From contig CM049320.1 of the NCBI GenBank assembly GCA_026874595.1, positions 44,466,714 to 44,530,713 of the forward strand: DNA of 64,000 nt, given 5' to 3'. Under the pieces are notes generated by a model. That model was given only the letters and a program-made list of their open reading frames with translations, did no database searches and had not been told where the DNA came from. The DNA is from Sipunculus nudus. Taxonomy: Eukaryota; Annelida; Sipuncula; Golfingiida; Sipunculidae. Shown here one piece after another: positions 33,990-64,000 of this stretch (position 1 is the first letter of the stretch; every line of letters starts with the position of its first letter). A program made the position numbers and the translations under genes.

Positions 33990-34861
33990 GTGTACCCGCT
34001 TTTTTGTCGTTTGCTAGAACTGCGTTGAAAGCACTTAATGGCAAAGTGATTTTTTCCATGGCATTTAGAACAAGTTTTCCCCCAGGCAGGGCATAATTCT
34101 TTGTCCACAATATGTCTTTTGCCACAGAACTGGCATTCTTGACTTCTTCTCTTAGGCTGCTCTCTAATTTTGTGAACAGTAGTTTCAGCTTTTATCATGG
34201 TTTTCATATGGGCCCTGGTTTGTTCAGCACCTTTACAAATGTCCACACACTGTTTAAGGGATAGATGCCTAATTTTCAAAAGCTCCTCTTGGGTATCTTT
34301 ATATCCATCAAATCTGATCCCATGGATTATTCTATCTCTTATTAGGCTGTCTTTGCAAAACCCACAAGTTTTAGCAAGAGTTCTCAAATTTGTTACAAAC
34401 TGGTCAACTGTTTCAGTGCTTTGCTGGGTACACTCCCCAAACAAGTACCTCTCACGTGTTTCATTAACCTCACCAACATATAGTTGATCTAGTTTACTTA
34501 GTACAGTGTCCAAATCATCATCCTCACCTGGCTTAAATTCAAAAGCATTCAGCTCACGCAGTATGTGGTCACCTGCTACATGTTTGAAGTATGCCATCTT
34601 TGCACCCTGAGGCAGCTTTCTTACATTGGAGATAGCACAAAAATTGGACCATTTCTGTTTCCAGAGTTTCCATCTATCAGATGTATCACTTGGGGTATCT
34701 CCAGGAAGGAATTCATTTGGTGGGTTAATCTTGGGAAGGTTAAAGTCAGGTTCATCGTCCATTGGGGCATTTGTGGCCTCCTGGGGTGGGTTACGGTGGT
34801 TTCCCTGACTCATGGTGGTATGCAAGGTGCGGGAGCTATAGATTGAGTCAAATGCTTCCAT
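33986..34861 (-). CDS. gypsy-2 Gag
   Basis: 291 codons, intact, ATG at 34861. The N-terminal part is acidic and Pro-rich (DDEPDFNLPKINPPNEFLPG). A capsid-like helical part follows with LWKQKWSNFCAISNVRK and RERYLFGECTQQSTETVDQF. The C-terminal nucleocapsid has a Cys/His segment CQFCGKRHIVDKELCPAWG and a zinc knuckle CSKCHGKNHFAIKC (C-x2-C-x4-H-x4-C). It would assemble particles and bind the RNA. The leader to the LTR is only about 110 bp. Confidence 0.92.
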   Translation of the reverse strand: MEAFDSIYSSRTLHTTMSQGNHRNPPQEATNAPMDDEPDFNLPKINPPNEFLPGDTPSDTSDRWKLWKQKWSNFCAISNVRKLPQGAKMAYFKHVAGDHILRELNAFEFKPGEDDDLDTVLSKLDQLYVGEVNETRERYLFGECTQQSTETVDQFVTNLRTLAKTCGFCKDSLIRDRIIHGIRFDGYKDTQEELLKIRHLSLKQCVDICKGAEQTRAHMKTMIKAETTVHKIREQPKRRSQECQFCGKRHIVDKELCPAWGKTCSKCHGKNHFAIKCFQRSSSKRQKSGYT

Positions 34862-34970
34862 TATCGCTCACCTTCGTAGTTTCTGGGAATGTAGTCCATT
34901 CACCTGTGGTGATACCAGTCAATGTGTGTCTACTTAGCTGAAGTGGACACATTTACCACCGCTGCCAGCA
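34862..34970 (-). promoter_or_regulatory. gypsy-2 leader with likely primer-binding site
   Basis: Read on the minus strand, the LTR ends GTTTGAAACA and is followed after three bases by TGGCAGCGGTGGTAAATG, the place and TGG start expected for a tRNA primer site. The tRNA was not identified. Confidence 0.5.
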
Positions 34971-35286: not shown

Positions 35287-38200
35287 ACCCCACCTAACCC
35301 AAGGTGAAAGATTCCGCCCTACCCAAGGTGAGAGAAACCACCCTGGTCCCCATCCTATACCTAAGGTGAGAGAAACCACCCTGGTCCCCATCCTATACCT
35401 AATATGAGAGAAACCACCCTGGTCCCAGTCCTATACCTAAGATGAGAGAAACCACCCTGATCCCCATCCTATACCTAAGATGAGAGAAACCACCCTGGTC
35501 CCAGTCCTATACCCTAAATGAGAGAAACCACCCTGATCCCCATCCTATACCTAATATAAGAGAAATCACCCTGGCCCCAATCCTATACCTAAGATGAGAG
35601 AAACCATCCTGGTCCCAATCCTATACCTAAGATGAGAGAAACCATTGTGGCCCCCATCCTGTACCTAAGATGAGAGAAACCACCCTGATCCCCATCCTTT
35701 ACCTAAGATGAGAGAAACCACCCTGGTCCCAGTCCTATACCTAACATGTAAGAAACCACCCTGGTCCCCATCCTATACCTAAGATGAGAGAAACCACCCT
35801 GGTCCCCATCCTATACCTAAGATGAGAGAAACCACCCTGGTCTCAATCCTATCCTAATATGAGAGAAACCGCACTGGTCCCCATCCTATACCTAATACGA
35901 GAGAAACAACCCTGGTCCCCATCCTATACCTAAAATGAGAGAAACCACCCTGATCCCCATCCTATACCTAATATAAGAGAAATCACCCTGGCCCCAATCC
36001 TATACCTAAGATGAGAGAAATCACCCTGGTCCCCATCCTATACCTAATATGAGAGAAACCACCCTGGTCCCAATCCTATACCTAATATGAGAGAAACCAC
36101 CCTGTTCCCAATCCTATACCTAAAATGAGAGAAACCACCCTGATCCCCATCCTATACCTAATATAAGAGAAATCACCCTGGCCCCAATCCTATACCTTAT
36201 ATGAGAGAAACCACCCTGGTCCCCATCCTATACCTAAGATGAGAGAAACCACCCTGGTCCCCATGCTATACCTAATATGAGAGAATTAAACAACCCTTAT
36301 CCCCATCCTATACCTAATATGAGAGAAACCATCCTGGCCCCCATCCTATACCTAAGATGAGAGAAAGCACCCTGGTCCCAATCCTATACCTAATATGAGA
36401 GGCACCACCCTGGTCCCCATCCTATACCTAAGATGAGAGAAACCACCCTGGTCCCCATGCTATACCTAATATGAGAGAATTAAACAACCCTGATCCCCAT
36501 CCTATACCTAATATGAGAGAAACCATCCTGGCCCCCATCCTAAACCTAAGATGAGAGAAACCAACCTGGTCCCCATGCTATACCTAATATGAGAGAATTA
36601 AACAACCCTGATCCCCATCCTATACCTAATATGAGAGAAACCATCCTGGCCCCCATCCTAAACCTAAGATGAGAGAAACCAACCTGGTCCCAATCCTATA
36701 CCTCATATGAGAGGCACCACCCTGGTCCCCATCTTATACCTAAGATGAGAGAAACCACCCTGATCCCCATCCTATACCTAATATGAGAGAAACCACCCTG
36801 GTCCCAGTCCTCTACCTAAGATGAGAGAAACCACCCTGATCCCCATCCTATACCTAATATGAGAGAAACCACCCTGGTCCCAGTCCTCTACCTAAGATGA
36901 GAGAAACCACCCTGATCTCCATCCTATACCTAAGATGAGAGAAACCACCCTGGTCCCAGTCCTATACCTAAGATGAATGAAACCACCCTGGTCCCCATCT
37001 TATACCTAAGATGAAAGAAACCACCCTGGTCCCCGTCTTATACCTAAGATGAGAGAAACCATCCTGGTCCCAATCCTATACCTAAGATGAGAGAAACCAT
37101 TGTGGCCCCCATCCTGTACCTAAGATGAGAGAAACCACCCTGATCCCCATCCTTTACCTAAGATGAGAGAAACCACCCTGGTCCCAGTCCTATACCTAAG
37201 ATGTAAGAAACCACCCTGGTCCCCATCCTATACCTAATATGAGAGAAACCACCCTGGTCCCAATCCTATACCTAATATGAGAGAAACCACCCTGTTCCCA
37301 ATCCTATACCTTATATGAGAGAAACCACCCTGGTCCCCATCCTATATCTAAGATGAGAGAAACCACCCTGGTCCCCATGCTATACCTAATATGAGAGAAT
37401 TAAACAACCCTTATCCCCATCCTATACCTAATATGAGAGAAACCATCCTGGCCCCCATCCTATACCTAAGATGAGAGAAAGCACCCTGGTCCCAATCCTA
37501 TACCTAATATGAGAGGCACCACCCTGGTCCCCATCCTATACCTAAGATGAGAGAAACCACCCTGGTCCCCATGCTATACCTAATATGAGAGAATTAAACA
37601 ACCCTGATCCCCATCCTATACCTAATATGAGAGAAACCATCCTGGCCCCCATCCTAAACCTAAGATGAGAGAAACCAACCTGGTCCCAATCCTATACCTC
37701 ATATGAGAGGCACCACCCTGGTCCCCATCTTATACCTAAGATGAGAGAAACCACCCTGATCCCCATCCTATACCTAATATGAGAGAAACCACCCTGGTCC
37801 CAGTCCTCTACCTAAGATGAGAGAAACCACCCTGATCCCCATCCTATACCTAATATGAGAGAAACCACCCTGGTCCCAGTCCTCTACCTAAGATGAGAGA
37901 AACCATTGTGGCCCCCATCCTGTACCTAAGATGAGAGAAACCACCCTGATCCCCATCTTATACCTAAGATGAAAGAAACCACCCTGGTCCCCGTCTTATA
38001 CCTAAGATGAGAGAAACCATCCTGGTCCCGATCCTATACCTAAGATGAGAGAAACCATTGTGGCCCCCATCCTGTACCTAAGATGAGAGAAACCACCCTG
38101 ATCCCCATCCTTTACCTAAGATGAGAGAAACCACCCTGGTCCCAGTCCTATACCTAAGATGTAAGAAACCACCCTGGTCCCCATCCTATACCTAAGATGA

Positions 38201-38288
38201 GAGAAACCACCCTGGACCCCATCCTATACCTAATATGAGAGAAACCACCCTGATCCCAATCCTATACCTTATATGAGAGAAGCCACCC
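35287..38288. repeat. 38-bp satellite array, about 78 units
   Basis: Unit: CCCTGGTCCCCATCCTATAC followed by CTAAGATGAGAGAAACCA. Successive units are 38 bp apart (for example 35341 and 35379). Variants include CTAATATGAG, TTCCCAATCC, AACCATTGTGGCCCCC (35641, about 37100, 37900 and 38055) and a longer unit with GAGAATTAAACAACCC (36281, 36476, 36594, 37395, 37589). The same variants return in the same order about 1.1 kb apart, so blocks of many units have been duplicated. No transcript or protein is predicted: stops occur in every frame. Confidence 0.97.
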
Positions 38289-39424
38289 TTCACAATTTTC
38301 TTATTTACATTGACAGGTTTTAGTTATTCAGTCATTCAAACTATTGAAGATCTGTCAAACTAGAAAATATTCTGGAATTTTGAAAAATAATTAGAAAAAA
38401 ATCCGTGGAATTATTCAAACCTTAATGGATGTATTAATTAAATAAGGACTAAGAATTAAACTCAGTTTAGGTGCTTGGGTCCAACATTTATTGACAAAAT
38501 ATATTTTATATATGTTCATATAGCTATTTTGAGTGTTATGGCAATTTTTTTTATGGCAGTTTTCTGTCCACGTTTCATTGTGAAAATACTTTAACTAATA
38601 ATATATGCAATATTGACCTGAAAATAAAATACATTCATCCAAAATAATATTAAAAAAAATGTATTCTTCACAATAGACAAGTCATGAACAAAGGCCAATC
38701 ACTCTGGTTTAACATCAAAATTTTGTAAAATTAAAACTTAATTTATATCCGACAGTGCATACTGGAACTACGCAGTAATTCTTGATTCACAATCAGTTAA
38801 TATTCCTTTTATTAAAAACATACTTTTTAAATATTGTTTGTCTCTTTATTCCCGAAACATGTTTAAAACAAGGTTCTGAAATGTTGTTCAAGACTGACCT
38901 CTGTATGTTTTGTCCTGAGCAGGGATTTTAAGAAACATTTGTGTCTTTTATTCTCACTGAGTTGGGCATATTAATTTTTTGTATGAAAAACTACATATAA
39001 CCCAACTGAAAATATTATAACTGTATCATTATCAATATCATGCAGACATTACTCTGTCTACAGATCTGACAGTTTGTCAAGTTATTATGTTGATATTCAG
39101 TGTAGTGTTTATGAAGGGGTCAAGATACATGTACAAAAACACATCGATAACACAAGTTTGCCCAGTGCAGTAAACTCAGATTACAAAAGCTGAGTTTGAG
39201 TTTCATAGTTATTTCACTATATAGATAATTAAATAATCATGTTAATTCTGTTGATATGATAGCTATCAACGTGATATTTCAGAAAAGCGAAAAAAAGTCA
39301 ATTTCTGTAAATAAGCGAGTTACAGGGTTACTGTACTGGGGGTGCGTTATTTGCATGTAATGATAGGAAATAGGAAGGTCATACAATGGATAAAACTTTA
39401 TGATCAACATGCATAACAAATTTC
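38289..39424. other. AT-rich non-coding stretch
   Basis: No gene or repeat was recognised. Confidence 0.5.
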
Positions 39425-44525: not shown

Positions 44526-46870
44526 TTTTATTTTAAACATATTTATTTCTGCTGGATCGACCAAGTAGCTTAATAAAGCTAGAAGACGGCTTCTCCAGTA
44601 TAAAGCAGGTACATGAACAAGAATTAAATACAATAATACATATATACAATACATAAGGATGACCGAAGTAGTCATGTCATTTACAAACATGTCTTTTACG
44701 CAAATCATATACTGAAAAACGAAACATAACAAATTATATGTAGGAAACAACTAAGTAAAACTAATTGAATTCCGATTCGTTGTGGTAAAATTAAATACAA
44801 GGTGGAAATCTACAAGTACCGCTGCCACGGCAAAATGCTAAATCTTCTGGTTGCCATTATATATTCCTGCGTACATGACAATAAGCGAGTGTTGATCTCA
44901 TCTGAGAGAGTCGATGATCCATGCAGCAAAATATATGTTAAATATGTGGGACATATTTCAACCCATAAGGAAAAATTGACATTTGGAGAGAGGAGACAAG
45001 AGAGATTATTAAAATAACGTTTCCTTTGATTGAAATACAGGGAACAACACAGGAGGTAATGTTCGTTTGTTTCATTTAATGCCCCACAGTCACAACGTGG
45101 GGAAGGCACCGCCCCAATTTTGAATAAGTATTCGTTTAATGCTGATGCATTTAAACGAAGTCTTGCAAGTAAGATATTTCCGATTCTGTTATCATGTTTA
45201 TAATAAGAAGGAATCTGGCACTTGCTTGTTATACTCGCTTTGAAAGTCTCGAGTATAGAGACGAGCCGCGTTTTTCCCTCCAAGTTATTCCAGAGCAATA
45301 GAGTAGAAGGAAAAAAAAATTTCCCGAACCTGTTGGTTCTGTGGATGATCGGAACAAATGGTATATTAGATCGTCGGCTGCGAGTCGTAGCCGGTTTGAC
45401 GATCTTCTGGAAAGTGTTAATCAAATAATTAGGTGCCAAAGCATTGCTAATTTTATAAAATAATGTAATCTTGTGGTTTGTCCTACGAGCTTTTAGAGAC
45501 TCCCACCCAGTCTCTTCGAATATTGACTGTTTACTGGTGCCCCGCAAGGCGCCCACGCAAATACATGCCGCCCGGTACTGAACTGAATCTAATGTTTCCT
45601 CAAGATACTGCGGCATGCCATCATATATCACGTCCATATACTCTAAAATCGGTCGACACATAGAAAAATAAAGTCGTTCCAATGTTTGTCTTGGCAGTTT
45701 ATACTTCAGTGTGCTCAAAACATTAAGGCATTTATGAGCTTTAATAACAATGTTGTTGATATGACTTTCCCAATTCATTTTATTATTTAAAATAAGACCC
45801 AAATGCGAATGTTCAGTGACCTCAGGCAGCAGTTCGCCGTTTAGATAAAGCGGCGGGTGCGGGTCCCTATTTGCTTTATAAGATACCGTAAGTACTTCAG
45901 TTTTGGTGGGGTTAAAAGTAATCCTCCACAGTTTCGCCCAGTCGTTCAGGGTGGCTAAGTCACTTCTCAATGTAAGCGCAGATTCTACTGGGTCGCATAC
46001 CTTGTTTACTAAGGTTATAACATCGGCATATATATAAACATCACTTTCCAGATGGTGTGCGACATCATAGGTATATATCAAATAAAGCAATGGCCCCAGT
46101 ATAGATCCCTGTGGGACCCCTGCGTGAACTCGTTGCCAGCCCGACTTTTGACCCTTTACAACAACCCGTTGGTACCTATTACATAGATAACTCTTTGTCC
46201 AGTCGATTAGATCTTCGGAGAAACCTAATTCTCTCATTTTAAATAAAACCCCTTCATGCCAGACTCTATCGAAAGCTTTGGTCGCATCGAGGAAAACAAA
46301 TCTAACGTCATTCCCGGATTCCAGAGCATCATATATATTATGAGTTAATTGCACCATTTGGTATGTCGTGCCGTCTTTTTTCTTGAATCCTGAATTTCGA
46401 GGGCAGAGTAAATCGTATGTTGATAAATATTTATAGAAACGATTAAAAACTAGCTTTTCCATCACTTTAGATATACTATTAAGTAAAGAGACTGGTCGAT
46501 AATTAGATACTAATCGCCTGTCTTTCTTTTTAAATATTGGGATCACGTTTGCTAGTTTCCATTTAGAAGGAAACGTCCGCTGGGCAAGCGATTCGTTAAA
46601 AAGGTCACAGAAAGGTTGAGAAAGAGATGAAGCACATTCGCTTAAAATTCTATTACTGATCCCATCAGGTCCGCATTCCTTCACCACGTTTAGTGCTGTG
46701 AGAACGTTATAAACTTCGTCATTAGTGAACTGGAACAAGTCTAATCTATTTGATGCGACGATATTTCTTGATTGATACAAATTTACTGCATTGTCTTGAT
46801 TTTGACACTGACTTGCAAAATAGTCATTGAATAGTTCAGCCTTGGCTACTGCATCATGTACAGATGTGTC
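44526..46870 (-). mobile_element. Non-LTR retrotransposon (LINE-2) nested in LINE-1
   Basis: Minus-strand, 5'-truncated LINE inserted in LINE-1 ORF2. The host frame stops at 'tcaatgatta' (to 44525) and resumes at 'attacttta' (46871), so ATTA or microhomology is repeated at the junctions. Its 3' end, read on the minus strand, is an A-rich 'gtttaaaataaaa'. The RT style is jockey/CR1-like. Confidence 0.88.
44810..46870 (-). pseudogene. LINE-2 reverse transcriptase, long open frame with mutated active site
   Basis: Open without a stop for about 685 codons, from the 5' truncation point to TGA/TAA at 44810-44812. Visible motifs are CGPDGISNRILSECASSL, VSNYRPVSLLNSISKVMEKL, VRFVFLDATKAFDRVWHEGV and AGVPQGSILGPLLYLIY. 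The active site reads SDVYIYADVITLVN (46019-46030): Val replaces the second Asp of YADD. After the RT come LNDWAKLWRITFNPTKTEVL and a C-terminal Cys/His segment, RCDCGALNETNEHYLLCCSL. With YADV the enzyme should not polymerise, despite the intact frame. The endonuclease part is missing through truncation. Confidence 0.9.
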
Positions 46871-47893
46871 ATTACTTTAGAGAAATATCTTATTTATGTA
46901 CCAAATAAAAAATATAGACAAGCATTAGCTCAAATAAGATGCTCAAATCATAACTTGCTAATAGAGAAGGGAAGACACATTAATATGGATAAAGAAGAGA
47001 GAGTATGTCAGTATTGTATGAACTATGGTATAAATGAGATAGAAGATGAATATCACTTTTTGTTAAGATGTTTAATGTATGATGATTTAAGAGAAACATA
47101 TTTGAAGAAAACATGTCGTAATGCATCAATTGAAAATTTTTTTACATATACTTCAGTCTGACAATAAAATAGAGATTTGTAAATTAGCAGCATACACTTA
47201 CCATGCCTTTAGGAAGAGGGAAGCAACTATTTAGTTATAAAGTCAGAAATTAAATAAATACTCATATAATAATATTCCGATTACATATATTCTAGAGCCA
47301 AATTATCTCTGTTTAATGTTTAAAAGTCTGCACTTTAAATTCAAGAATTCTGCTGAATATATAAATACTGTATTATATAATTTTTATACTGTAACGGTTC
47401 ACTGAACTGTAATAAAACTTGTTTTATATTTTATATTTTATATTTCCATAAAGAAGACATGCAGTGGTAAGATATCTCTAGCTATCATTTAAGTGTTTAT
47501 ATATTTTTCTGTTCATCTGTTTGTTTGTTTATTTGTTTACATATTTTCTATTATATTCAATTTTGTTATATATATACTGGTAAATGTTAAATATTTTCAG
47601 GCAGATAGCATGTGTAGAACTTACATGTGCACACAGTTTATTTAAAGAAAATATATGCATATGTTATTGTCAGCATTTATTTTGATAATTGTCATTTTGT
47701 TTGCATTCACTGTCTATTCTGCTTTAAGAATTCTGCTTTATTTAGTTCTCTGTGTTTATATTAAGTTTGTTCAGTTAACTGACTGTATTCAGATCATTTT
47801 CATTCAGTTGTTCAATAAGAACTTGAAATATGTCAATCATGTTGGGAACTGTAGGCCCTGTGGCCGTTTTTCCTGAATAAAGTTCTGTTCTGA

Positions 47894-48712: not shown

Positions 48713-48773
48713 ATGGACCGCTGGCTGACGACCGCTCTCCTGTTCGGATTCCTGGCACTATATTCTACAGCTG
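48713..48773 (+). CDS. Signal-peptide exon of a secreted TSP1-domain protein
   Basis: The ATG at 48713 has a strong context (G at -3, G at +4). The 20 codons spell MDRWLTTALLFGFLALYSTA, a standard signal peptide with a short polar start, a hydrophobic core and small residues for cleavage. A GT donor follows at 48774 (G|GTAGTG), with an alternative at 48780; both leave phase 1. This phase fits the acceptor at 62611-62612, where the next exon starts with the last two bases of an Ala codon. Without splicing the frame runs 23 more codons to TAA, so a tiny secreted peptide is the alternative. Joining to the downstream TSP1 exon is inferred from phase, strand and the need of a TSP1 protein for a signal peptide; an intervening exon cannot be excluded. 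Confidence 0.6.
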
Positions 48774-48866
48774 GTAGTGGTAGGACTAGTATTCCATATT
48801 GTGGTTATGACCCTAGAATGTCTACCCATTTGTATACTGAAAAATGTGGGTTCAATGCCTAATAGA

Positions 48867-49301
48867 CACCCAACTAGTGAACCAACATTTTTTTATTTTT
48901 TTTTTCTCCACAAAATCCCTCATTTCTGCCTGTGAACCCACATTTATTTTGTGCAAAGTGAACAAACTTTTGCACTTTTTGGTATTTTTGTCAAAATGTG
49001 ACGCCTATTTTTTACTGCATATTTTTAACTTATAAAATACTATTATATTTTACTTATATAAGTATATTATAAACATACTGTATCACCCAACTAGTGAACC
49101 AACATTTTTTTATTTTTTTTTTTCTCCACAAAATCCCTCATTTCTGCCTGTGAACCCACATTTATTTTGTGCAAAGTGAACAAACTTTTGCACTTTTTGG
49201 TATTTTTGTCAAAATGTGACGCCTATTTTTTACTGCATATTTTTAACTTATAAAATACTATTATATTTTACTTATATAAGTATATTATAAACATACTGTA
49301 T
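48867..49301 (+). repeat. Nearly identical 217-bp tandem duplication
   Basis: 'cacccaactagtgaaccaac' starts at 48867 and again at 49084. The copies differ visibly only by one T in a poly-T run. It is recent, and lies in the intron of the TSP1 gene. Confidence 0.95.
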
Positions 49302-49477
49302 GCATACATATATATTACTTATATACCGTATGAATGTGTATATGTTGAACCCACATTTGTTTTTTTTGTCAATGACGTCGCGTAAACATATCACATCAAG
49401 AAAAATAAGTCATGAAATTACGCTTATTTTTCCTATATAACTTAACAAATGATAATATATTAATATATTATTTATAG
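49302..49477. other. Intronic AT-rich spacer
   Basis: Nothing recognised. Confidence 0.4.
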
Positions 49478-49790
49478 TAGGGGTAAAAATGCAGTATAGG
49501 TGACCTGCCCAAAACTGGCTTCCTCACTGATGGTCTGTCCTCATTATTCTTGATTCCACATGGAGCTTACTAAATGAGTCAATCAACATGCACACATCTT
49601 TGTAAGAATTACATATAAAGAATATATAAGAATTATAAGAATCACATTTTTATAAGAAACACATAAAGAGAATATATAAGAATTATAAGCATCACATACA
49701 GCAGTCTTGATTCAAGGAAAAAATTAAGTATGAGTTATGCCAGTTTTGGGCAGGTCACCTATATTGCACTTTTACCGTTTTAGCCCCCTA
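49478..49790. mobile_element. Small TIR element (MITE-2)
   Basis: 'tataggtgacctgccc' with 'aaaactggc' at 49494-49519 is matched in reverse complement at 49739-49763, extended outward by 'taaaa.tgca' on both sides and by TAGGGG at the extreme ends. The arms are about 40 bp and the total about 310 bp, non-coding. The inside has two similar blocks with 'gaatatataagaattataag'. The target duplication was not resolved. Confidence 0.8.
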
Positions 49791-50092
49791 AATTTCATCC
49801 CCGTATAATGCCCCTATACCATAAATTTTCGTGAGATTGAAAGTACTTAATTTTAATTAGGAAAATTAATTGCTGATTCGGGGGTTCAGTTTCAGATTGA
49901 ATTTCAATGATACATCAGTTTATATATATTTTTAGGCTATATACGATTACTAGCCTATAGTGGCAAGGGTAATTGTGTATTTTCGAGTTTTTTTTAAAGC
50001 CTTATTTCACAGCCTCCTGACAATATTCTTGAAGGAATTATATTATAATCATAATTAACATATGTATAATTAAGCAAAATTAAGGGTTATTT

Positions 50093-50136
<44 letters not shown>

Positions 50137-50387
50137 ATATATATGATGTTTTCATAAAAGCACCGTTAAATTGGACAAATGTAGTGGAAAATTGTGTATT
50201 CCGCCTTAATGTCGTTCATGACTTTTTTGTATATCGTCAGGTAAACAAGAGCATTCAAACCCCTATTTACATGTTTAACGCCTCATTTACAAGGTACAAA
50301 AGGAAATATTTGTCTTATTTTTAATATTATCTTATATTAAAACCTTACCTCATTATATTTAGTATAATTGTTTCATATAAATATGCC
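49791..50387. other. Intronic spacer with (TA)n
   Basis: AT-rich. (TA)n of about 18 units at 50098-50133. No gene. Confidence 0.6.
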
Positions 50388-50918
50388 AGTCACCACATAA
50401 ATGGCTTCTGTCCAATCTCCACCAGAGATCACTGCCGCTGCGCTCCACCAGAGGTCACTACCGCTTCGCTGATTTATTTATTTAATAACTTCCAATATGA
50501 GGAGGGGATGTTCATGCTAAAACAATACATATATATCACAAGTTCAGGATATGAACACAATAATCATGAAAATATATTAAAAAGCCTTTAAGAGCATTTT
50601 CAGTAATGCCATGTTCTTACTAAAACCAGGGTTTAAAATATTACGAATACTATCAACCAGACCATTTTTACCCTCCTCTACTCTTTCCACATGATTTCTT
50701 TTCACAGACAGAACATATTTTCGATTTAGAATAACAATTATATAATTATTTCCATGTGTTTAGCATATGTTTTCAACACGTCTTGTTCACAAATTAGGGG
50801 ACTGACTATTTTTACTGTAAAATGTTTTAACCCCTGATCTGTATTTAAATATATTATTTAATAACATTATAGTTTGCACATCGACATAGTGAGACACTGG
50901 CGGCAAGTCTAACGCCTG

Positions 50919-53900
50919 GATTTATGGACCAAATAATGACAACCCAGATTTTTTTATTAATATTATGGATAAAATAGAATTACTACCAAATGACAATAGA
51001 ATATTAGCAGGTGACTTCAACTTAGTTCTTAATATCACTAAAGATAAAAAAGGAGGCAGGGCTAAAACTCATAAAAAAGCTCAAACAGTGGTGAACCTAT
51101 GGATAAAAAACTTAGACTTAGTGGATATATGGCGTAAACAACACCCAAATTTATCGCAATATACCTGGAAAAGATTAAACCCTAAAATTATTTTATGCCG
51201 ATTAGATTTTATACTTATTTCTAAAGGTCTTTCCGAACGTGTACATAAAACAGATATCCAATCAGGTTTTAAAACTGACCACTCTGCTGCTACAATAACA
51301 ATTGATATGAAATTAAATAAAAGAGGACCGGGCTTCTGGAAATTTAATCGTAACCTGTTGAATAACTCAGATTATATAAAACTTATTAAAGAAACTATTA
51401 AAGAAACTAAAGAATATAATAAAAGTGCCAATCCATCTTTGCTATGGGATACTATTAAATGTAAATTAAGAGGGGCATCCATTATTTATTCTCATAGACT
51501 AAACAAGCAAAAAAGAACAAAACTACAACAACTAGAAAACAAATTAAAAATATTAGAGGAACAATATGCAGATAGCCTAGATGATGCTTTAACAGTAGAA
51601 ATAGACCAGCAAAAAGTAGAAATTGAAAATATTATAAAAGAAAAAACAGAAGGAGCAATGTTAAGGTGTAAAACTAAATGGTTTGAGGACGGCGAGAGAC
51701 CGTCTAAATATTTTCTGAATCTGGAAAAGAGGTTATATAACAGAAAGACTATTACTAAACTTAAAGTTGATGATCACTATGTAACAGACCACCATGAGAT
51801 TTTAAAAGAAACAGAGAAATTTTATAAGAATTTGTATACTTCAACACAGTTTAATTTAGATGAAAATTTTTATACAGAATTCTTTACACAATCACACAAA
51901 ATACTAACAGAAGAAGAAAAAAACCTTTGTGATGCCGATTTATCTGAAAACGAAATCTTAGAATGTCTTAAATCTTTTAAAAATGGGAAAACTCCTGGAA
52001 CAGATGGTCTTACAGTTGAATTTTATAGATATTTCTGGGAAGATATCAAACAATATTTAATCAGTGCCTTTGAATACTCATACCTAAAAGAAAAGCTCAA
52101 TATTTCTCAACGTCAAGGGATTATTACACTGATTCCAAAAAAAATAAAAAAACCCACTAAGTTTGAAGAACTGGAGACCAATTTCTTTGCTTAATATAGA
52201 TTATAAAATACTTACTAAATGTATGGCAAGAAGGTTACAATCAGTTCTTCAAAGAATAATCCATCCAGATCAAACTGGATTTTTAAAAAGTCGTTATATA
52301 GGAGAAAGTCTTAATAGAATTTATAACTTAAATAACTATTGCAGTAAAAACAAAATTAAAGCTAATTTAACCCTTTACTGTTTACAAGCCACTAAAGAGC
52401 ACTCTAAATGGGCAACTAGAATGCCATGATATGTATAGATTCTTTCAGGATAAAAATATTGCATATTATTTCTAAGTTTCAATGATTTTCAATAATCTTC
52501 AGCAAACCCTCTTAGTTGGAACTGTTGAAAATTTGATAAAGATACAGAAAAAGCTTGAAAAGATATGGCTGTTAGTGTAAATATAAATAGTGTCAGAATT
52601 TGTCAGAAATCTAAAATAAATGTAAACAGTAAAGGGTTAATAACAATCGACTTTGAAAAAGCATTTGATTTATTAGAATGGTCTTTTATAAACAAAACAC
52701 TCCAGTACTATAATTTTGGAACTATATTCTGTAAGTGGGTTAAAATTTTTTATACTGACATATCATCTTGTGTTATTAATAATGGGTGGAGCTCTTGTTT
52801 CTTCCCAATAAGCAGAGGAGTACGGCAAGGTTGCCCTATGTCTCCTTATTTATTTATAGTCTGCGCAGAAATTTTAGCATCGAGTATTAGAAATAATGTA
52901 AATATTAAAGGTATAGAAGTAGAAAATTCTGAACATGTAATATCTCAATATGCAGACGATACGACTCTATTTATTAAAGGAGGAGGGCCAGTGATTCATG
53001 AGACTATTGAACAGTTTAAGAGATTCAATAAATTAGTGGTTTAAAAATTAACATAGAAAAAACCGCAGTAATGCCTATGGGTAATCACGAATATGGAAAA
53101 GAAGAAATAAAACATTTAGGGTTACAATGGACAGAGGGACCAATTACACTTATAGGAATTAATATTAACAGTACACTCCAAAATCTTAGCGAACTTAACT
53201 TTAAACCTTTAATAGGAAAAATAAATAAATTAGTGGAAACATGGTCAAAACGAAAATTGACACCAATTGGTAAAATTACAGTAATTAAATCCGATTTAGT
53301 ATCCCAATTACAATATCAATTTTCTGTTCTACCAAATCCACCCGCCTCCATAATAAAAGAAATTGAAACTATTCTATATAACTTTATATGGAATAGTAAG
53401 ATAGATAAAATAAAAAGAGAAACTCTTATAGCTTCTAAAGATAATGATGGATTGGATATGACAGATATTTGGTCAAAAATACAGGCAACAAAAATCATGT
53501 GGATTTATAGACTACTAAATTCAAATATTAAAGAAGGATGGAGGCAATTAATTAATCACAGCCTAAATAATTTAACTAAATATTTATTCACATGTAATAT
53601 TAAATTTGATGATGTAGATCAGATACATATACTCAGAAAACTAAACATATTCTGGAAAGAAATAGTACAAGAATGGTGTAAATATAACTTTTATATCCCA
53701 GAAACAACAAATGAATATCTTAATCAATCATTATGGATAAATTCCCATATCAAAATAAATGGTAAAATCGTATTTTATAAAAAGTGGTATGATTCAGGGA
53801 TCCGATATATACACAACTTGACTAAGATGGTGAATAATGCATATTTCTTCTATTCAATTCAAGAAATAAAAAGGATTTATGATATTGAAATACACCAAAT

Positions 53901-54555
53901 GCCCTACAATAGCATTATACATGCGATCCCTGTAAAATGGAAAAAAGAATTAAAGATTTGCCAAAGTTATCATAATTGTGAATTTAAACTCGAAAATAAC
54001 ATTGATAAATTATTAAAAATAGCTAAACCTGTTAAGTCCGTCTATAGCGAAGTTATAAGGGAAAAATATAAATCTCAAGTTAAAAGCATTTTGAAATGGC
54101 AAAAAGACTTGGCAGTATGTAACCAAAATAGTATACTTGAAGCTTTCAAGAATATAGGTTTTATAACAATATCTTCAAAATTAAGATATTTTCAATTTAA
54201 AATTTTGCATAGAATTTTAACTCTAAACCCTTTTCTTTTGAAGGCAGGAATTATAGATCAGGATAGTTGTACGTTTTGTATGAGAGACAAAGAAACTTAA
54301 CTGCATCTGTTTGTTAAATGTACAATCATAAATGATATATGGACAAAGTTAGCATTATGGCTGAAGAATTTCAATATAAATACAAATTTTGATAGTAAGA
54401 ATATAATTCTGAATAATAGCACAAATAAATTATTAGATAAAATTATTCTCTTAATGAAATATTATATATACACCACAAGATGTAATAAGAAGCAATTAAC
54501 TATTAAAGGTGCCACACAGTTTATTACAAAATATTACTGTGTGGAAAAGAAGTAG
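50919..54555 (+). pseudogene. LINE-3 ORF2 (endonuclease, reverse transcriptase, zf-RVT)
   Basis: EN part: ILAGDFNLVLNITKDKKGG (51000), LCRLDFILISKGL and SGFKTDHSAATI. Connector: WFEDGERPSKYFLNLEKR. RT: FKNGKTPGTDGLTVEFYRYF, then a frame change near 52170 to NWRPISLLNIDYKILTKCMA and HPDQTGFLKSRYIGESLNRI. After the inserted element come ITIDFEKAFDLLEW, RGVRQGCPMSPYLFIVCAEI and SQYADDTTLFIKGGG with an intact YADD. Another frame change near 53045 leads to HLGLQWTEGPITLIGININS and, at 54260, the zinc segment CTFCMRDKET, where a TAA (54298-54300) precedes LHLFVKC in the same frame. The layout is that of Tx1/L1 ORF2. Dead, but only a few lesions. Confidence 0.9.
52371..52636. mobile_element. piggyBac-like TTAA MITE (MITE-3) inside LINE-3
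   Basis: 266 bp with inverted ends CCCTTTACTGTTTACA (52371) and TGTAAACAGTAAAGGG (to 52636), flanked by TTAA at 52367-52370 and 52637-52640. A TTAA target and ends starting CCC are hallmarks of piggyBac. It has no transposase. It sits inside the RT domain, and the LINE frame is the same on both sides (insert plus TTAA is 270 bp). Confidence 0.93.
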
Positions 54556-54811
54556 CCATCACCAAAGGAAAGTTAGCTGTACATAAAACTATATGGGGAA
54601 AATTAGATATTATTATTGGGGAAACAAATTGAATTTTTACTGCTAGATTAAGGATGTTTATGTCTGCTTTGTTGTATATGTCACATGTTTGTGTATTTGA
54701 TGTATTATGCTAATGTAAAATTTTACAGTGATGTTATGTAACATATGTCATGTATGTTTGATTGTTTGTACAGTATTGTAAGTTTTGTTCTGTTGGTAAT
54801 AAAAAAAAAAT

Positions 54812-55211
54812 CAGTCCGTCTAAATACCCCCCCCCCCCCAAAAAAAAAAAAAGTCTGGAGTTGCCCAGATGGTTTATTCAGAACAAGCTGCTGAAGACGG
54901 TGGATAAAATGTCATATCTTGGTTCAATTATGAGTAACAATACTGCAAAGGACCATTGTGAGGCAAGAATTAGCGCATACATGTCGGAAAGTATTTTATA
55001 GCCTACAAGGTGCAGGTCTTTGTAATAAAGGATTAAACCTTTATGGTTTAATAATGCATGTATAGTCGATATGTTTTAAGAGTACTTTGGTGTACGGCTG
55101 TAATCCTATTAATTAACGAAAAGTCAAAGGCATGAATTGGACTGCCTGAAAGCCAGATTGATAAAAAGCATTGAAGGAATAGGTCCCTGTTACCGCACAA
55201 AGCCGCCACTC
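54812..55211 (+). pseudogene. Fragment of another LINE (post-RT region)
   Basis: After a C13-A14 tract (54827-54853), the frame 54870-55001 gives NKLLKTVDKMSYLGSIMSNN and HCEARISAYMSES, the segment that follows the RT in several LINE families ('YLGS.IS..G....I..RI'). SLQGAGLCNKGLN follows with stops and shifts. Only a remnant. Confidence 0.65.
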
Positions 55212-55704
55212 CAGGCCATAGACTTACCGCCAGTGCCTCACTATGTGGATGTGCAAACTATAATGTTATTGAATAATATATTTTAATATAGATCAGGGAC
55301 TAAATCATTTTACAGTCTCATGCTCAGTAAAAATGTCAGTCCCCCAAAAAATAGTCAGTCCCCTAATGTGTTCTGTCTGTGAAAAGAAATCATGTGGAAA
55401 GAGTAGGCGAGGGTAACAATGGTCTGGTTGATAGTGTTTTGAACCCTGGTTTTAGTAAGAACATGGCATTACTGAAAATGCTCTTAAAGGCTTTTTTTAT
55501 ATATTTTCATGATCATTGTGTTCATATCCTGATCTTGTGATATATATATGTATTGTTTTAGCATGAATATTCTCTCCTGATATTGGAGGTTATTAAATAA
55601 ATAAATAAATTAGCGTAGCGGTAATGATCGCTGGTGGAGCGAAGCGGTAGTGACCTCTGGTGGAGCGTAGCGGTAGGGACCTCTGGTGGAGATTGGGCAG
55701 AAGC

Positions 55705-56263
55705 CATTTATGTAGACTGGTACCCTGCTCTATTATGGCCCTCAGCCAAGCATAGAGACAGGCGTATAACGCCATCTTAAGTACTCCCAGTTGCAACTCC
55801 TGATTTACCTATAGACTGGTTCCAACTCCAGTATGCACGCTCATACCGGTTTTCATGGACGTTCACGCGATCCTGCTTGATTATCCGTGAAGATTTCTTA
55901 TAAAATAACTTTCTTTGGAGATTTCTAGTTTTAAAATATTGAAGAATAAGTTGTTGCACAAAAATTGAATGATGGATGTATAGATAATTAGATATACTGA
56001 ATCTTTGATATTCCACTGTGCGTAGCAGTTATTTAGTATTAATATATATATATTAATCTGATCATAAATGTTACACTTAATGTACAGCCAACTTTTGGTA
56101 ACTTCTCTGAGCAAACGAAATGCTTATTTTTATCATATAATACATACTGGAGTTGGAGCAAGTCTGCCGGGAATACATAAGATGGCGTTGTACGCCCGCC
56201 CAGAGCAGCGATGCCATAATAGAGCGGGGTACCAGTCTACCATTTATGTGGTGACTGGATTTC
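55705..56263. repeat. Inverted repeat, arms about 120 bp
   Basis: 55705-55845 reads in reverse complement as 56145-56245: 'catactggagttgga.c.agtct', 'taagatggcgtt.tacgcc', 'ccataatagagc.gggtacca'. The loop (about 290 bp) is AT-rich. The right arm ends with 'ccatttatgtggtgactgg', the same terminal phrase as the left end of the fold-back element at 50388, so the two structures are related. Confidence 0.8.
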
Positions 56264-57544
56264 TGTCTGACAATCTCAAGAGCGACACCTGTGGGGCTTT
56301 TACTTAACTAGTAATCTCCAAAATTTTCACATTTTTTCATGATATTTGAAAATTAACCAATTGATATACATATTTTTGTCTTTCAATTAGATTAATATTT
56401 AATTCTGCTTGTTTATGTAGAACATTATGAAAAATCTATTGGTCGATTATCTGAAATGAGAAACTGTTGTGTCCCCCTTAGTTATAAAATCATATTATAA
56501 TATTATACCATTTTTATTTCATAATTTAACATGGTATGTCATGTATATATCATTTGCAAAATATCTAAGCAAATCCGTCAGCGGAAAAAAAGTGTCAATT
56601 TGCCCCTATAAAACTATATACTTTATTTTACATTCATTAACAACAATAGTCTCTCCAACAGTGGGGCGTCCATTGAAATTTGTAAATCTTTTCTTAAATT
56701 TATAGATCAGATCCAGAAAGTAAGTTGCAATAGAGCGATAAGGCATAGGCCTTATTAACAAGAAAATACTAGAATGAAACCAAAACCATACCTTGTAAAA
56801 TATTATTTTTTGTAATTCATAAAAATCAATATATCTGAGAACACATTATTTTTTAAACATCTCAACCAAACTAATAAAGGCCAAGGTAAGTGGTCACATG
56901 CTCAAACGAGTACATTTAAACGCTGATGCATGGTTGTTGAGTGTCATAAATATTCTAAAATGCAATTTTCAAAGTGAGACTGCTACATGTCACTTTGCCA
57001 AAATATGCAAAATATCAATGTTGTTTTTCGCATTCTCCATGGTTCGGATGGTGGCGTTCGGTAGTTTGCAGAAAACTGGAGAACAACACCAACCTTGGAC
57101 GGGCCGCCTACTCTCATAGCAACGCCAGTGGAGACAGCCGAGCATTTTATCACTCGAATGTCCAGGCTGTAGGCCTAATTAGCTACTTCTACCATCCGTC
57201 AGATGGAAAAAATAAAAGGCGTCGTAATGGATCAGTCCATTCAGGGTATACTTTAATGACTAGTGGAACCCTTTTGTGCAGTTGTAAATGGACGAGTAAA
57301 GTTGTACCTCTGGTATTGTGTATTCTAAATTTTAGAGTTTTGTTCCGCTCTCACACACACAAAAATAAAAGTTTGTGCCAGTTAGTATCACTCGTGTCTG
57401 GCTATCAAGGCTATAAACCGTAAAAAGTAGGTCTGGGAGGAGACTGCAGTCAATCTGTGCACACTGTCCTGTGCCCACTGTCCTGTGCCCACTGGTCCCT
57501 TGCTCATTAGGGATTCGGTCTGCCTTTGAGGACTGAGGATTTCT
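56264..57544. other. Intronic stretch without recognised features
   Basis: Contains a 149-codon open frame at 56974-57423 that resembles nothing known to me and has a composition like its surroundings. A short repeat of 'cactgtcctgtgcc' occurs at 57455-57495. Confidence 0.4.
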
Positions 57545-58450
57545 AGAAGTCCTATGTTTATTATTCAAATAGGTCAAAGTCATCTAAACGTATAAAAATC
57601 GGATTTTGTCCATAACTCAGTTAATATTGGACCTATCTTTACAAGGTATGGCTTATTTTCTTCCTCTTCGTCGTAACTCATTCATTTGACTCCTACGTCA
57701 TTTCCAGCAAGCGCGTGACCTCTTGTCGTCTAGTTTGTATGTTTGTTTATGTGTTTGTCCCTACTCAACAGGCCACAGCTTTTTCTTCATATTTTTGTCG
57801 AAATCATCATAGCTGCATATGAACTGCAGCTCATGTTACTCGCCATTCAATGGTCGTTCCTCTGATGTATAGCTGTTATAATCTGCTGTTACCATGGTTA
57901 CACTTTTTGGAAAAAATTCATGACATTTCAAAATGTGGGGTCTCATTCTTCTAACTTTGTCCCTCTCAAATTTAGAGATGTCTGTTTTTTTTTTTATTTT
58001 TGCTTCAGGTAGCATTTGGTCTGTTTCACACTACTTTTTTTTTTTACAAAATATGTCCAAATCTTGTACCGTTTCTCGTCAAACGAGATATTACGAGATT
58101 TCACTTTCTTTCACTCTATAGGCCTCAATTCTCGAGCAATTATACAATTGAAAGACGAATAAAACCCCTACAAATCTTTCGTTTTGAATTGAGACAGGCC
58201 AAAGGTCAAGGTCATCAGAAAACGCAAAAATTTTATTTTGCTCATAACTTCGTCAAATATTGTCCTATCTACACAAACTATAGCTCATTTTATTGGTGTA
58301 TGCATTCCGCATTACGAGGTCTAATCATATGTCATCTAGATTGTATCAGTCTGTCAGTATGTCTATCTGTTCGTCTGTTGTTGTCAACTGCCTGCTAGAT
58401 CTTTGGTCTGTCATATGTCATTCTGGAGTCCATATTGTTATACCAATGAT
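57545..58450 (-). repeat. Family A, reversed
   Basis: The reverse complement shows family A phrases: 'atgacctt.gacc' (58198-58214), 'aataagccata', 'gcttgc.ggaaatgacg', 'aggtcacgcgcttgc', 'aacatgagctgc', 'gtaaccatggtaaca', and the palindrome 'tcgtcaaacga' near 58078. Two or more degraded units. Confidence 0.8.
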
Positions 58451-58499
58451 TCTGAAATGCATACAGTTGAAAGAAATATCAGGAAATATGTTCTGTCTG

Positions 58500-59045
58500 T
58501 CTCCCCGTTCGTCAGCGACTTTTCCGTCCGCGACGGGAGGTAGTCCGAGCCTCAAAAACTGGTCTGAAACGATTAAAGGTAAAAAAGGTTGCGGCTACTG
58601 AAGAGGACTCCTCTTGGGTCCCCTTCTGCTGCTAACGAGGTTTGCATATTTCCGTGTCTTTCTTGAGGAACAGCTTCCTTGCCTTAAAACGTACATTTAT
58701 TTGATCTTTCATGCCTTTCTCACTTCAATCTATTCTTATACCTCAAACCATAACAACAAGTCAAAGATCATCGAAAACCTGAATGCCCCCGCGTCCTATT
58801 CCGGTTCACTAATGTAAACAGCATCACTGACCAGGTCTTCAAGGTAAACATTTACCGATGTATGAATTTCTTGCCACGAGCACAGTGCCACCAATTAATG
58901 TAAAGATATTTGTACATATCTTATTGAGACAGTATCTCACTGATTTTTTTATTTAAACTTTAAGAACAACAACAAAAATCAGCCAACATTCCTCATCTTT
59001 GTCGATACATCGCCTGGTTACAGGGTTTTTCAGCTAGTTGTATAA
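58500..59045 (+). repeat. Family C dispersed repeat, copy 2
   Basis: Partner of 2560-3335: 'gggtcc.cttctgctgct', 'cttgc....aacgtacattta', 'catcgaaaacctgaatgccc', 'ttccggttc' and 'cagctagtt'. It lacks about 150 bp present in copy 1. Confidence 0.75.
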
Positions 59046-60205
59046 AAATTAGTTGTGGCTATCAAGACTTAAAGAAATTAGGCAGTCATTTTATATTTCA
59101 AATAAAAAAGCGCACTATCAAATACATCACGGCTGCTAATATATATTTGCAATTATGGTTCAAGGTCAACCAAAGGAATCGCCGAGCAAAGGTTGCAACA
59201 CCAGGAACGTTTTGCGATCCCAGAATTAGAGGACCAAGACAATGTTTGTAGCTGGCGGCGTTTCTCAGGCACAAATCGGTTCAATATTATATATATATAA
59301 AATGGAATTTTGTCCCACCTTTAGGCACACGTGTAAGGTTCCTTTGGCGTTTTAAAATCCATATTCACACTTTAACGTTTCAGTTTTAGATGGTACATAT
59401 TCCAGCTTGAACATGTTTCAGGAAGAAGGCTGAGACACGTTTTCAACATGTTTGGCATGTATTACATGTTCTATATGTCCTGCTGCTTGTATGTCTCAGT
59501 CTGAAACACTTGCCTGAAACACATGATCAGGAAAATCGGCTAATTACGAAAAACATGTTCTTGCGACATGTTTCAAATGATAACCATCCCCCTACCTTTT
59601 CATCTTGAAACTGGAAATAGTTTGAAGCACCAGTATGTCCCAATTTTTGGCACACGTGTTCCTGTTACACGTTCTTCATATTTCAAAGTTTGAGAAACAT
59701 GTTTTAAAACACCCCGCTTTATATTAAGTCTTTATGAGAATCTTAGGTAATACACAATATGATACACACGACCATAAATAAGGGCCAAAGGTTTAAAAGC
59801 TCACCTGTGAATTTCTCATATAAGACAATACTGGAAAAGCACGAGTTATTCTATTTAATAAAAAAAGTTTCCTGAAATTTAATAGATCATTCCAACTGCA
59901 AAATCTGCAGAGAATTCTTAAGAATATAGATACTTAAGGCATAACTATCCTATTTCATTTTACAAGTACAATTTAATAATTTATATGCCTGCTATCAGAC
60001 ATATATCTCATGCAATTTTCAGCATTTTGCTATTTTGTCATGACTGCTATATTTAAAATTCGTGAATATGCCCATTACAGTTTTGAAGAAATGACTTGAC
60101 TGACTATCGTAAATAAATTGCATGCCATCAGGACATGACTAAAATAAGTTTTTTATTTTGCAATGCTAATACAGCTAATGTCTCCCCTCTATATGGGTCT
60201 CACAT
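59046..60205. other. Intronic stretch, ACATGTTT-rich in part
   Basis: 59390-59720 has many 'acatgttt', 'gaaacac' and 'acatgttc' words (about ten), a low-complexity patch without a fixed period. The rest is plain AT-rich DNA. Confidence 0.5.
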
Positions 60206-60955
60206 CCCTAAATACGAGGGAAAAATACGGACTTTTTCAAAAGTCACAGCATTCACAAATAATTTCCATTCCGGCTGGTATGACCTTGAAGATGAAGGTC
60301 AAGGTCATCGGCTTTTGAACACTTCCGAGATTTTTAAGAAACACTTCACATATCAAATGTCATGAAAATAAATTGGGTGGTTCAAAAGTGAAAGTGTAAA
60401 CAAAATATTTCTATTTCTGTTGATTTGACCTTGAAAATGAAGGTCAAGGTCACCGGTTGTTGAACACTTCTGAGTTGAAAGTAGAAACATTGCACAAGTC
60501 AAATTTCATGAAATGTTTCAAAAGTTATAGCTTCACCAATAATTTCTATTCCGGCTATTTGACCTTGAAGATCCAGGTCCGTGAAGATCACGGGTTTTTG
60601 AATAGTTCTCAGATTTTGGTAGAAACCTTTCACGAGTCGAATTTTATGAAAATATACTATGTGGTTCAAAAGTTATAGTTTTCACAAATAATTTTTTATT
60701 CCAGCTGATTTGACCTTGAAGATCCTGGTCAAGGTAACCAGTTTCAAAGAACTTGGTTGAAACAGTTTGAGGAAAAATAAGCGACACTTCAAAAGTCATG
60801 GGGTTCACAAAATATTTCTGTTTCGGCCTATTTGACCTAGATGATGGTTAAGGTCACCGATTTTCTAACCCTTCAGAGTTACTGATACAATTTATTTTCA
60901 AAATTCATGAAAACAATGTTGAGTCGTTCAAATGTTATCACGTTCACAAGAAATG
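60206..60955 (+). repeat. Diverged tandem repeat, unit about 140 bp, with TCAAGGTCA
   Basis: Five units share 'ttcacaaataatttc.attc', 'cggct.atttgaccttgaagat', 'aaggtcaaggtca.cgg', 'ttttgaac.cttc.gagtt', 'cattttcatga' and 'ggttcaaaagttatag'. The first two keep a full TGACCTTGA...TCAAGGTCA pair (60281-60307 and 60426-60452). No gene. Confidence 0.85.
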
Positions 60956-61020
60956 TCATAGACGACGACGACGCCGCCGACTACGGACACGGTCGCCGAC
61001 GAAGACGGACTAAACGATAT
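60956..61020 (+). repeat. GAC-rich low-complexity patch
   Basis: 'catagacgacgacgacgccg' and similar words, coding nothing recognisable. Confidence 0.7.
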
Positions 61021-61084
61021 ATGTCTCCCCCGACCCATGATGTTCTAATGGACTATTTGAGACCATTCCGTTTTTTAAGCTCAG

Positions 61085-62520
61085 GTTCCTTTCAGTCATG
61101 CTAAGCCATAGCGAACACTTTTTGTCCGTCGTCCGTCTGTCGGGCCGTCTGGCTGTCCGTCTGTCCGTTAACCAGGCACAAATCGTAACCGCTAAGCGTG
61201 ACATCTAGTAAGGTCCCTGAAAAAAATCTCCTTGGAAACCTGAAATTAGGTCTATGTTACCCATATCCTCCGAGCTATGGGGCTCAGAAGTACCCCCAAG
61301 AAAAATTAAAAATTTGATACAAAAGCTCCTGTATCTGAACAACTAATGGATTGATCAACATGATTCTTTGTATGCATAGTGATCATGGAGTGTATCATCA
61401 GTTCCTGCAGACTGGTGGCGCCACCTTGATTATTTTTTTTAATTTTTACTTTTTTTTAAACTATATTTTAGACCTTCAAAGATGCAGTCGTCCGTTACCA
61501 GGGCACATATCATAACCATTGGACCTAGAATCTTCTAACTTGACATTCAGGGGGGTTCTAGTAAAAAAAATTCCTTAGAAACCTGAAATTAGGTCTCTCT
61601 TACTCATATCCACCGAGCTATGGTGCTCATAACTACCCCCGGGAATAATTAAAATTTGATAAAAAACCTCCGGTTTGTGAACAACTTATGCATATATCTC
61701 CATGATCCTTTGCATGCACATTCATCATGGAGTATTTCATCAGTTCCTGCAGCATGGTGGCGCCACCTGGATTTTTTTTTGTCAAATGTTTACGCATTTT
61801 TATACGCCCGTATACCCACAGTCCGTCCGTATGTCCGTCCGTTAACTTTAGTGTCGCCTTGATAACTTACCGGGGCTTCATGGAATTTTGGGAAACTCAA
61901 CATAACTACTTACCAACAGATCACCTCGCCTGAGTTCGATTTTGGAAAAATCCACGCTTATTTAATAAGGTCACGGATAACGCGGCTACTTTGTGGTGTC
62001 GCCGCGATAACTTACGAAGAATATGAAGGATTATGATAAAACTCAAATGTTAATCAATAAAAATATCTCGCCTAAGTTCGATTTCCAGCGAAATCCATGC
62101 ATATTTAATGAGGTCAGAGGTCACCGCACTTTGGAAGCCCCTGTTGATTTACCTAAAATCCTTTGGATTTTCATGAAACTTATTATACATATTTACCAAT
62201 ATAGTTTCTCACCTGAATTACATTCTCATAAAAGGCATGCATATTTAATGTGGTAAGAGGTCACCAGATTCACAGCGAGCGTATTATGCACGTTTGCGGT
62301 GTTCTTGTCTTTTAATTTTTATTGTTGAGACCTTCAAAGAAGCAGTCGTCCGTTAACAGGACACAAATCGTAACCATTACACTTAGAATCTTCTAACTTG
62401 ACATCCAGGGAGGTCCGTAAAAAATCTCCTTGGAAACCTGAAATTAGGTCTTTGTTACCCATATTCTCCGAGGAATGGGGGGGTACCATCTACAAAATTT
62501 GACATTCAGATGATAAAATT
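61085..62520 (+). repeat. Family D tandem units plus a 130-bp sub-family
   Basis: Family D units begin near 61110, 61490 and 62335, each with 'gtccgttaacaggacacaaa', 'ttctaacttgacat.cag', 'ctccttggaaacctgaaatt' and 'aggtc..tgttacccatat'. The first two end 'ttcctgca..atggtggcgcc'. Between them, 61850-62280 holds three diverged 130-bp copies with 'cgataactta', 'tcgcctgagttcgatttt', 'atccatgcatatttaa' and 'gaggtcaccg'. No gene. Confidence 0.85.
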
Positions 62521-62612
62521 CCTTTTGTCAATGTCTTCCTATTCAGCTGAGCGTCATGACCTCTGGGTCATTTTTTTTTGTGGGATGAATTATATTTTTT
62601 TTTTCTTTTCAG

Positions 62613-64000
62613 CTTCACCTGCAACCAAAGTAACCTGGTCAACCTGGGCTACTTGCACGGTGTCATGTGGTGGCGGTATACGCATCAGAAGTCGGCCGTG
62701 TGTGCCTGGTCCCCGGACAGCTTGCAGCTCCAGTCACGCTGTCATGGTGAGGGCTTGCGCAACTAAACCATGTAGACCGAACGAGAATTGGTCTACACGA
62801 CCAAAAAAATATAACAAACACAGTCAACCAGAATACGAACAACAAGGGGGGGAAATCGTGTCGAAGAGAGGGAAGCATTTGGAAAAAACTCTATCCTACA
62901 AAACCAAAAGTTTTCAAGAGGCAGAGAAACTAAAAAAGACGCCCACTAACGATGAAAGAAAATATGGCGTTCATCACAAAGCAAATACATCGAAAAGCAA
63001 AGAATGGAAGCGTATGGCAAGACTTCTGGAAAAGTTGACACAAAAATTACACTTAAAGGAAAAGTTACAAAATATGCGGACAAAACGTGACGTAACGTCA
63101 CGTGGCACACGTAGTGCAATCATTGTCAAAACTCGCACAGAAGGAGTGAGCAATAATGGTGCTGCTCCCACTCGTTTAACCAGAAGTGTACATACAGTAT
63201 CCAACATAAATGAAGAACCAAGACAACAGAATAGCGGAGATACCGGGAAGAGAGCAAAAAAACTCAAGAAAATTGACACACGAGGAAAAACCTTAAAATA
63301 CACTAAAATTAATAACGGTCATATAAGACAGAGACAAAAAGATGGTCTGCTCAGGAGAGGCAGACACAGGAAACCAGAGTTCAACACAGGTCGAAATGCG
63401 GGAGAAAAAAAAACAACACAACGTATCAAAACGATGGCAGCGGATAGACACGCCAGCAAAACCAAGCACCCATACCATTCAGGTCAAGGTGTTTATGGAC
63501 ATGAATCTTATGGTGTCACCAACAAATCCAAGCTCCCTGAGTATAGCAAAATGTTTGGCCGCAGGAAATCTTTAGGTGAACTGAATACAGAACAACAGCC
63601 TCAAGATTCATTTCTCGTTCAAACGACCCACGTAGATAAATCAAATGACACTAAATCTGATTCTGTTGCTACAACCAAGGCTCACCTTTCAGAAATGTCA
63701 ACTCAGTCGAATAATTCTGATGAGCCCTCTACCCCATCGGCTGTCACAACAGACGTCCCAAAAACCAGTCGACGTCCTCTCAGTAACCACGACCTGAAAA
63801 TACCAGCAGTGCCGAAGAATGTCAGTAAACAGGAACTACAAAACATATTGTATAAAGTGGACAACATCACTAAATACCGGAAACGACAAAAAAAGGTTCA
63901 CAAAGGTGGTCAAAGGAAATACTCCAAAAGGGCGCGGAATGGTCACCATATAACGGAATCCCCCGAAAATACTACCGGTTCAACGAATAAAAATTACCAA
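62613..64000 (+). CDS. Secreted TSP1-domain protein with long basic tail (exon runs past window end)
   Basis: The acceptor is a T-rich tract and CAG ending at 62612. From there 462 codons are open to 64000, far beyond chance. The first part is one thrombospondin type 1 repeat (62630-62773): VTWSTWATCTVSCGGGIRIR, then RPC, TAC, RAC and KPC, giving six cysteines. WSTW fits C-mannosylation and CTVSC fits O-fucosylation of such domains. The rest, about 400 residues, has no Cys, is rich in Lys, Arg, Thr, Ser and Asn, and looks disordered. It has N-glycosylation sequons (ANTS, NDTK, NNSD, NVSK, NITK, NTTG) and a furin-type site RTKR (63078-63089). TSP1 domains bind matrix and glycosaminoglycans; a matrix or ligand role is inferred. 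No known protein is recognised. The 5' partner is probably the exon at 48713. Confidence 0.85.

Follow-up and report, generated by a model that had tools for sequence, protein, structure and literature searches.

A TSP1 domain followed by a long, basic, cysteine-free tail in an incomplete gene of Sipunculus nudus

What kind of protein begins in the open reading frame that is cut off at the edge of this 64,000-nucleotide stretch of Sipunculus nudus DNA (hereafter, the window)? The frame occupies 62615–64000 of the forward strand, contains 462 codons and zero stops, and runs off the window end. As the initial annotation had it, the frame starts at a good candidate splice acceptor; here a T-rich tract precedes the CAG, and the bases CT are left to fill a phase-1 codon. 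The surrounding stop-to-stop frame opens at 62402, upstream of the acceptor. An open run of 462 codons has a chance probability of ~2.4e-12 at this base composition if the bases are treated as independent. Codon periodicity changes at the acceptor, from 0.13 (62402–62612) and 0.06 (61400–62612) upstream to 2.45 in the TSP1 part and 2.85 in the tail downstream. The tail value exceeds all 150 background windows (maximum 1.91), which were overlapping, of equal length, and drawn from five stretches picked to avoid large transposon frames. When each third of the tail is judged separately, the periodicity of the last is significant (P 0.004) and that of the first and second is not (P 0.57 and 0.21, respectively). 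Exon 2 is a real part of an animal gene, truncated by the end of the window at 64000. The features of the locus are collected in Table 1.

Table 1. Coordinates of the candidate gene and its parts (window positions; residues are numbered in the exon 2 frame).
Feature	Coordinates	Strand	Remarks
Candidate exon 1, signal peptide	48713..48779	+	starts MDRWLTTALLFGFLALYSTA, phase 1; end 48779 or 48773
Candidate intron, 13.8 kb	48780..62612	+	LINE-type element inside; acceptor CAG 62610–62612
Exon 2	62613..64000	+	coding from 62615; first two bases complete split codon; open at window end
TSP1 domain	62636..62773	+	residues 8–53; Pfam PF00090
Cys-free basic tail	62783..64000	+	residues 57–462, pI ~10.8; ends with window
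Predicted cationic amphipathic helix	62996..63100	+	residues 128–162; hydrophobic moment, AlphaFold2
Three R-x-x-R sites	63077..63184	+	RTKR 155–158, RGTR 163–166, RLTR 187–190

The first module encoded by exon 2 is a TSP1 domain, matched by Pfam TSP_1 at 30.9 bits (cut-off 21.6, E 3.1e-7). Two specialized models fall below threshold on it, namely TSP1_spondin (PF19028; 21.6 bits versus a cut-off of 41) and TSP1_ADAMTS (16 bits versus 23.8). TSP1 repeats are recognized by six cysteines, a W-x-x-W before the first Cys, and a C-x-x-[ST]-C-x-x-G motif. This domain has all of them: the six Cys, WSTWATC, CTVSCGGG, and residues W8, W11, R25, and R27 are in place, in agreement with the six-cysteine repeat and modification motifs reported initially. 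Judging from the consensus motifs for these modifications, the domain is probably C-mannosylated and O-fucosylated. Its nearest solved chains are the type 1 repeats of thrombospondin-1 (7yyk), which match the domain at the six Cys and at the W and R positions; the E-value of 6.8e-13, obtained with the domain alone, is summed over three repeats, which taken singly give ~E 0.001 to 0.03 (best single stretch, ~E 0.001). Next come circumsporozoite protein, semaphorin-5A, ADAMTS-5, and properdin, with UNC5D, isthmin-1, and CCN3 ranked lower. Thrombospondin-1 carries three TSP1 repeats amid many other domains, whereas here one domain is followed by a basic tail. A loose two-motif pattern applied to the window in six frames gave 6 matches, of which only the one at 62636 is TSP1-like, and no second TSP1 exon was found. 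‘One TSP1 domain’ is nevertheless a lower bound, since the gene continues past the window end at 64000.

Beyond the domain, 406 residues contain 0 Cys and 90 K+R versus 39 D+E, which upholds the earlier description of a strongly positive, Cys-free tail of about 400 residues. Motif counts in the tail were judged against 5000 shuffles of its own sequence. The tail had been called glycosylation-rich; the count of N-glycosylation sequons is right, at 8, but is not significantly above that expected from composition (mean 4.8, P 0.08). Likewise, the annotated furin-type RTKR is present, but a single R-x-[KR]-R compares with 0.57 in shuffles (P 0.43). RxxR sites number 5 versus 2.6 (P 0.11), heparin-type basic clusters 7 versus 5.5 (P 0.30), and dibasic pairs 20 versus 19.8 (P 0.53). 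We therefore reject enrichment for every one of these motif classes, and the sequon and furin-type counts add little information beyond the composition of the tail. An internal repeat was also rejected, as the two halves of the tail score 52 against each other, below the shuffle 95th percentile of 59. Compared with solved structures, the tail gave 4 matches up to E 10, the best at E 0.27, which we read as chance.

Our preferred reading, which we consider about evenly poised between right and wrong, is that the window contains the 5′ portion of an animal gene, exon 2 included, whose secreted product binds extracellular matrix and is retained there by the charge of its tail. A secreted protein combining a TSP1 domain with a long basic tail finds support in the Pfam match, the open frame, its periodicity, and a phase-matched signal-peptide exon upstream. 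We infer that, once the two exons are spliced, the signal peptide would direct the protein to the secretory pathway, where the TSP1 domain would fold and probably acquire its C-mannose and O-fucose. Outside the cell, the domain would provide a specific contact, and the charge of the long basic tail would anchor the protein to sulfated glycosaminoglycans or to acidic polymers of the matrix. TSP1 domains and basic regions are established heparin binders in other proteins, and mineral or matrix binding is possible for this one. Weighing against this reading, heparin-type basic clusters are no commoner than in shuffles, two of the three thirds of the tail lack significant periodicity when taken singly, and the donor scores of the signal-peptide exon are moderate. 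If the protein ends in the tail, its design is a simple one, with one adhesion domain and a long polycationic chain, suited to tests of how an animal matrix can hold a protein through charge alone.

The open end of the frame also leaves room for a different reading, in which exon 2 opens a longer multidomain or membrane protein, further TSP1 repeats or other modules lie past 64000, and the basic stretch serves only as a linker. At least 406 Cys-free residues follow the TSP1 domain, which is beyond the usual length of a linker and makes this a possible, if rather doubtful, account. In its favor, many animal TSP1 proteins have extra modules, as do an abalone shell protein (PMC6003135) and coral skeletal proteins (PMC4890752).

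Whether the proposed matrix-binding protein would be secreted depends on the candidate exon 1. Its ATG has G at −3 and +4, and two phase-1 GTs follow, at 48774 (donor score 0.0) and 48780 (2.4), both of which keep the frame; the donor at 48779/48780 is better than that at 48773/48774, the one chosen initially. Scanning both strands for an ATG, a hydrophobic core, cleavage-like residues, and a phase-1 GT returned 115 rows, in which ten distinct ATGs, 48713 included, reach the signal score of 48713, and some of those on the reverse strand score higher. A filter combining a signal score of 2.0, a donor score of 0, and a Kozak score of 2 passes two forward-strand ATGs, 17069 and 48713, the latter topping the former in both signal and Kozak scores. 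The earlier claim of a phase-matched signal-peptide exon therefore holds as to phase, but its donor was the weaker of the two (0.0 versus 2.4), and the match may be due to chance, given that the loose filter also admits 17069 and that higher signal scores occur on the reverse strand. On just two features, phase and signal score, joining this exon to the TSP1 exon is plausible.

The opposite case, in which 48713 lies outside the gene of exon 2 and is either a chance frame or the start of a separate short secreted peptide, strikes us as unlikely. It draws on the moderate donor scores, on the passage of 17069 through the identical filter, and on the unspliced frame, which stays open from 48713 to 48859 and spells a 49-residue peptide of secreted type with two Cys. 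The phase nevertheless fits, 48713 has the best signal and Kozak scores among forward-strand ATGs with a donor score of at least 0, and a Pfam scan of the first 48 unspliced codons gave no match. Two further observations concern the surroundings of this ATG. A full cAMP-response-type palindrome, TGACGTCA, lies at 48638, 75 bases upstream, and is the 1 copy in the window, versus 0.77 expected by chance. About 90 bases past the candidate donor, a 218-base unit occurs twice in tandem (48867–49301), with 99% agreement between the copies; it was either duplicated recently or produced by a join in the assembly.

The candidate intron contains a LINE-type element (50893–54300) between two inverted-repeat arms (50395–50920 and 55210–55713). 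Its frame at 50893–52191 has an endonuclease-family match at E 0.001, which falls short of the cut-off, and the reverse-transcriptase part was judged by eye. The arms, several hundred bases long and 88–95% complementary in pieces, are unusual for a LINE, and the whole may be a composite or nested insertion. In the pieces of the intron examined, we found neither a furin-like exon nor a second TSP1 exon.

Within the tail, one segment stands out that was absent from the initial annotation, a predicted helix, cationic and amphipathic, that has RTKR close to its end. Residues 128–145 have a hydrophobic moment of 0.741, above 0.715, the 99th percentile for the best segment in each of 500 shuffled tails. 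AlphaFold2, run twice without an alignment, predicted a helix in both runs, at 128–162 (block pLDDT up to 91) and 129–163 (up to 96). The TSP1 domain is folded in neither run, and therefore the models neither confirm this domain nor gauge disorder well; in the first run, 332 of the 462 residues, those of the TSP1 domain included, have a pLDDT below 50, which is weak evidence for disorder. RTKR, RGTR, and RLTR, possible proprotein-convertase sites by their motif, span 36 residues at and just past the helix. They invite a bolder scheme that we regard as very improbable, a two-part precursor in which the TSP1 domain would take the protein to a matrix or surface and cleavage at these sites would part the TSP1-plus-helix portion from the basic tail. 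Were it true, a membrane-active or signaling cationic helix would be delivered at a place defined by the TSP1 domain.

Among known systems, the R-spondins (RSPO1–4) share a secreted layout of one TSP1 domain and then a basic region, as described in PMC12111769, and to this end of the R-spondins our protein bears an analogy in logic. That paper defines the family by the furin-like PF15913 together with the TSP1 model PF19028, describes genes of RSPO4 type from molluscs, annelids, and brachiopods, and cites a structural simulation for RSPO4 heparin binding. R-spondins have two furin-like domains before a spondin-type TSP1. Here, the basic C-terminal region is present, with the charge balance given above, but PF19028 scores below its cut-off and PF15913 was found in none of the four Cys-dense forward-strand pieces between the exons (segments of at least 25 residues), and so, in the range scanned, the protein is not filed as an R-spondin. 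The tail, moreover, is far longer than R-spondin tails. A diverged ligand of R-spondin type, with its furin-like domains lost or elsewhere, is accordingly disfavored and barely credible, even though the TSP1 domain and basic region correspond to how R-spondins are laid out in their C-terminal half.

TSP1 domains also occur in secreted proteins of shell, skeleton, and byssus. In published reports, an abalone shell protein combines VWA, TSP1, and chitin-binding domains (PMC6003135), coral skeletal proteins contain TSP-1 and VWA (PMC4890752), and the green mussel foot has proteins similar to a TSP1-domain protein whose function is termed hard to guess (PMC7971044). A TSP1 box also appears in a figure of a pearl oyster paper (PMC3893171), and its likely carrier is the SCO-spondin-like gene 000098. 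The abalone and coral proteins differ from ours, by their descriptions, in carrying VWA, chitin-binding, F5/F8C, or mucin4 modules. With TSP1 proteins already described in abalone shell, coral skeleton, and mussel foot, a matrix role would be ordinary. As it stands, the gene is an incomplete member of a very large superfamily defined by this domain, and its product is probably a matrix-binding protein of an ordinary kind.

Protein searches yielded no match for the whole frame at E 0.001 (2538 word-sharing candidates), nor at E 10 for residues 1–60 (5 candidates) or residues 57–462 (3141 candidates). Because the TSP1 query itself drew only 5 candidates, animal proteins of this length are probably scarce in the collection searched, and the lack of homologues is no evidence for an orphan. 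In viral contigs, 4 stretches fitted a pattern and 0 were confirmed. Among the open-licence PMC papers listed for the term sets used, none dealt with a TSP1-plus-basic-tail architecture. Over the window, there were 0 Rfam matches at gathering cut-offs and 0 tRNAs.

Repeats and mobile elements occupy other parts of the window. A large minisatellite with a period of 38 (77.7 copies, 86% matches) spans 35320–38289, and a strong GC skew of −0.38 in 36001–38000 falls within it. Helitron-like remains at 8677–13646 are broken into several frames, with DUF6570 above cut-off (80.1 bits) and OTU-like and Pif1-like stretches below. On the reverse strand, 31278–34013 is a nearly intact Gypsy-type pol, in which reverse transcriptase, RNase H, and integrase exceed their cut-offs and a protease-like stretch does not; a gag-like frame (33986–34867) adjoins it. 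Also on the reverse strand, 44813–46876 is a LINE reverse-transcriptase frame of 688 codons (RVT_1, 98.5 bits).
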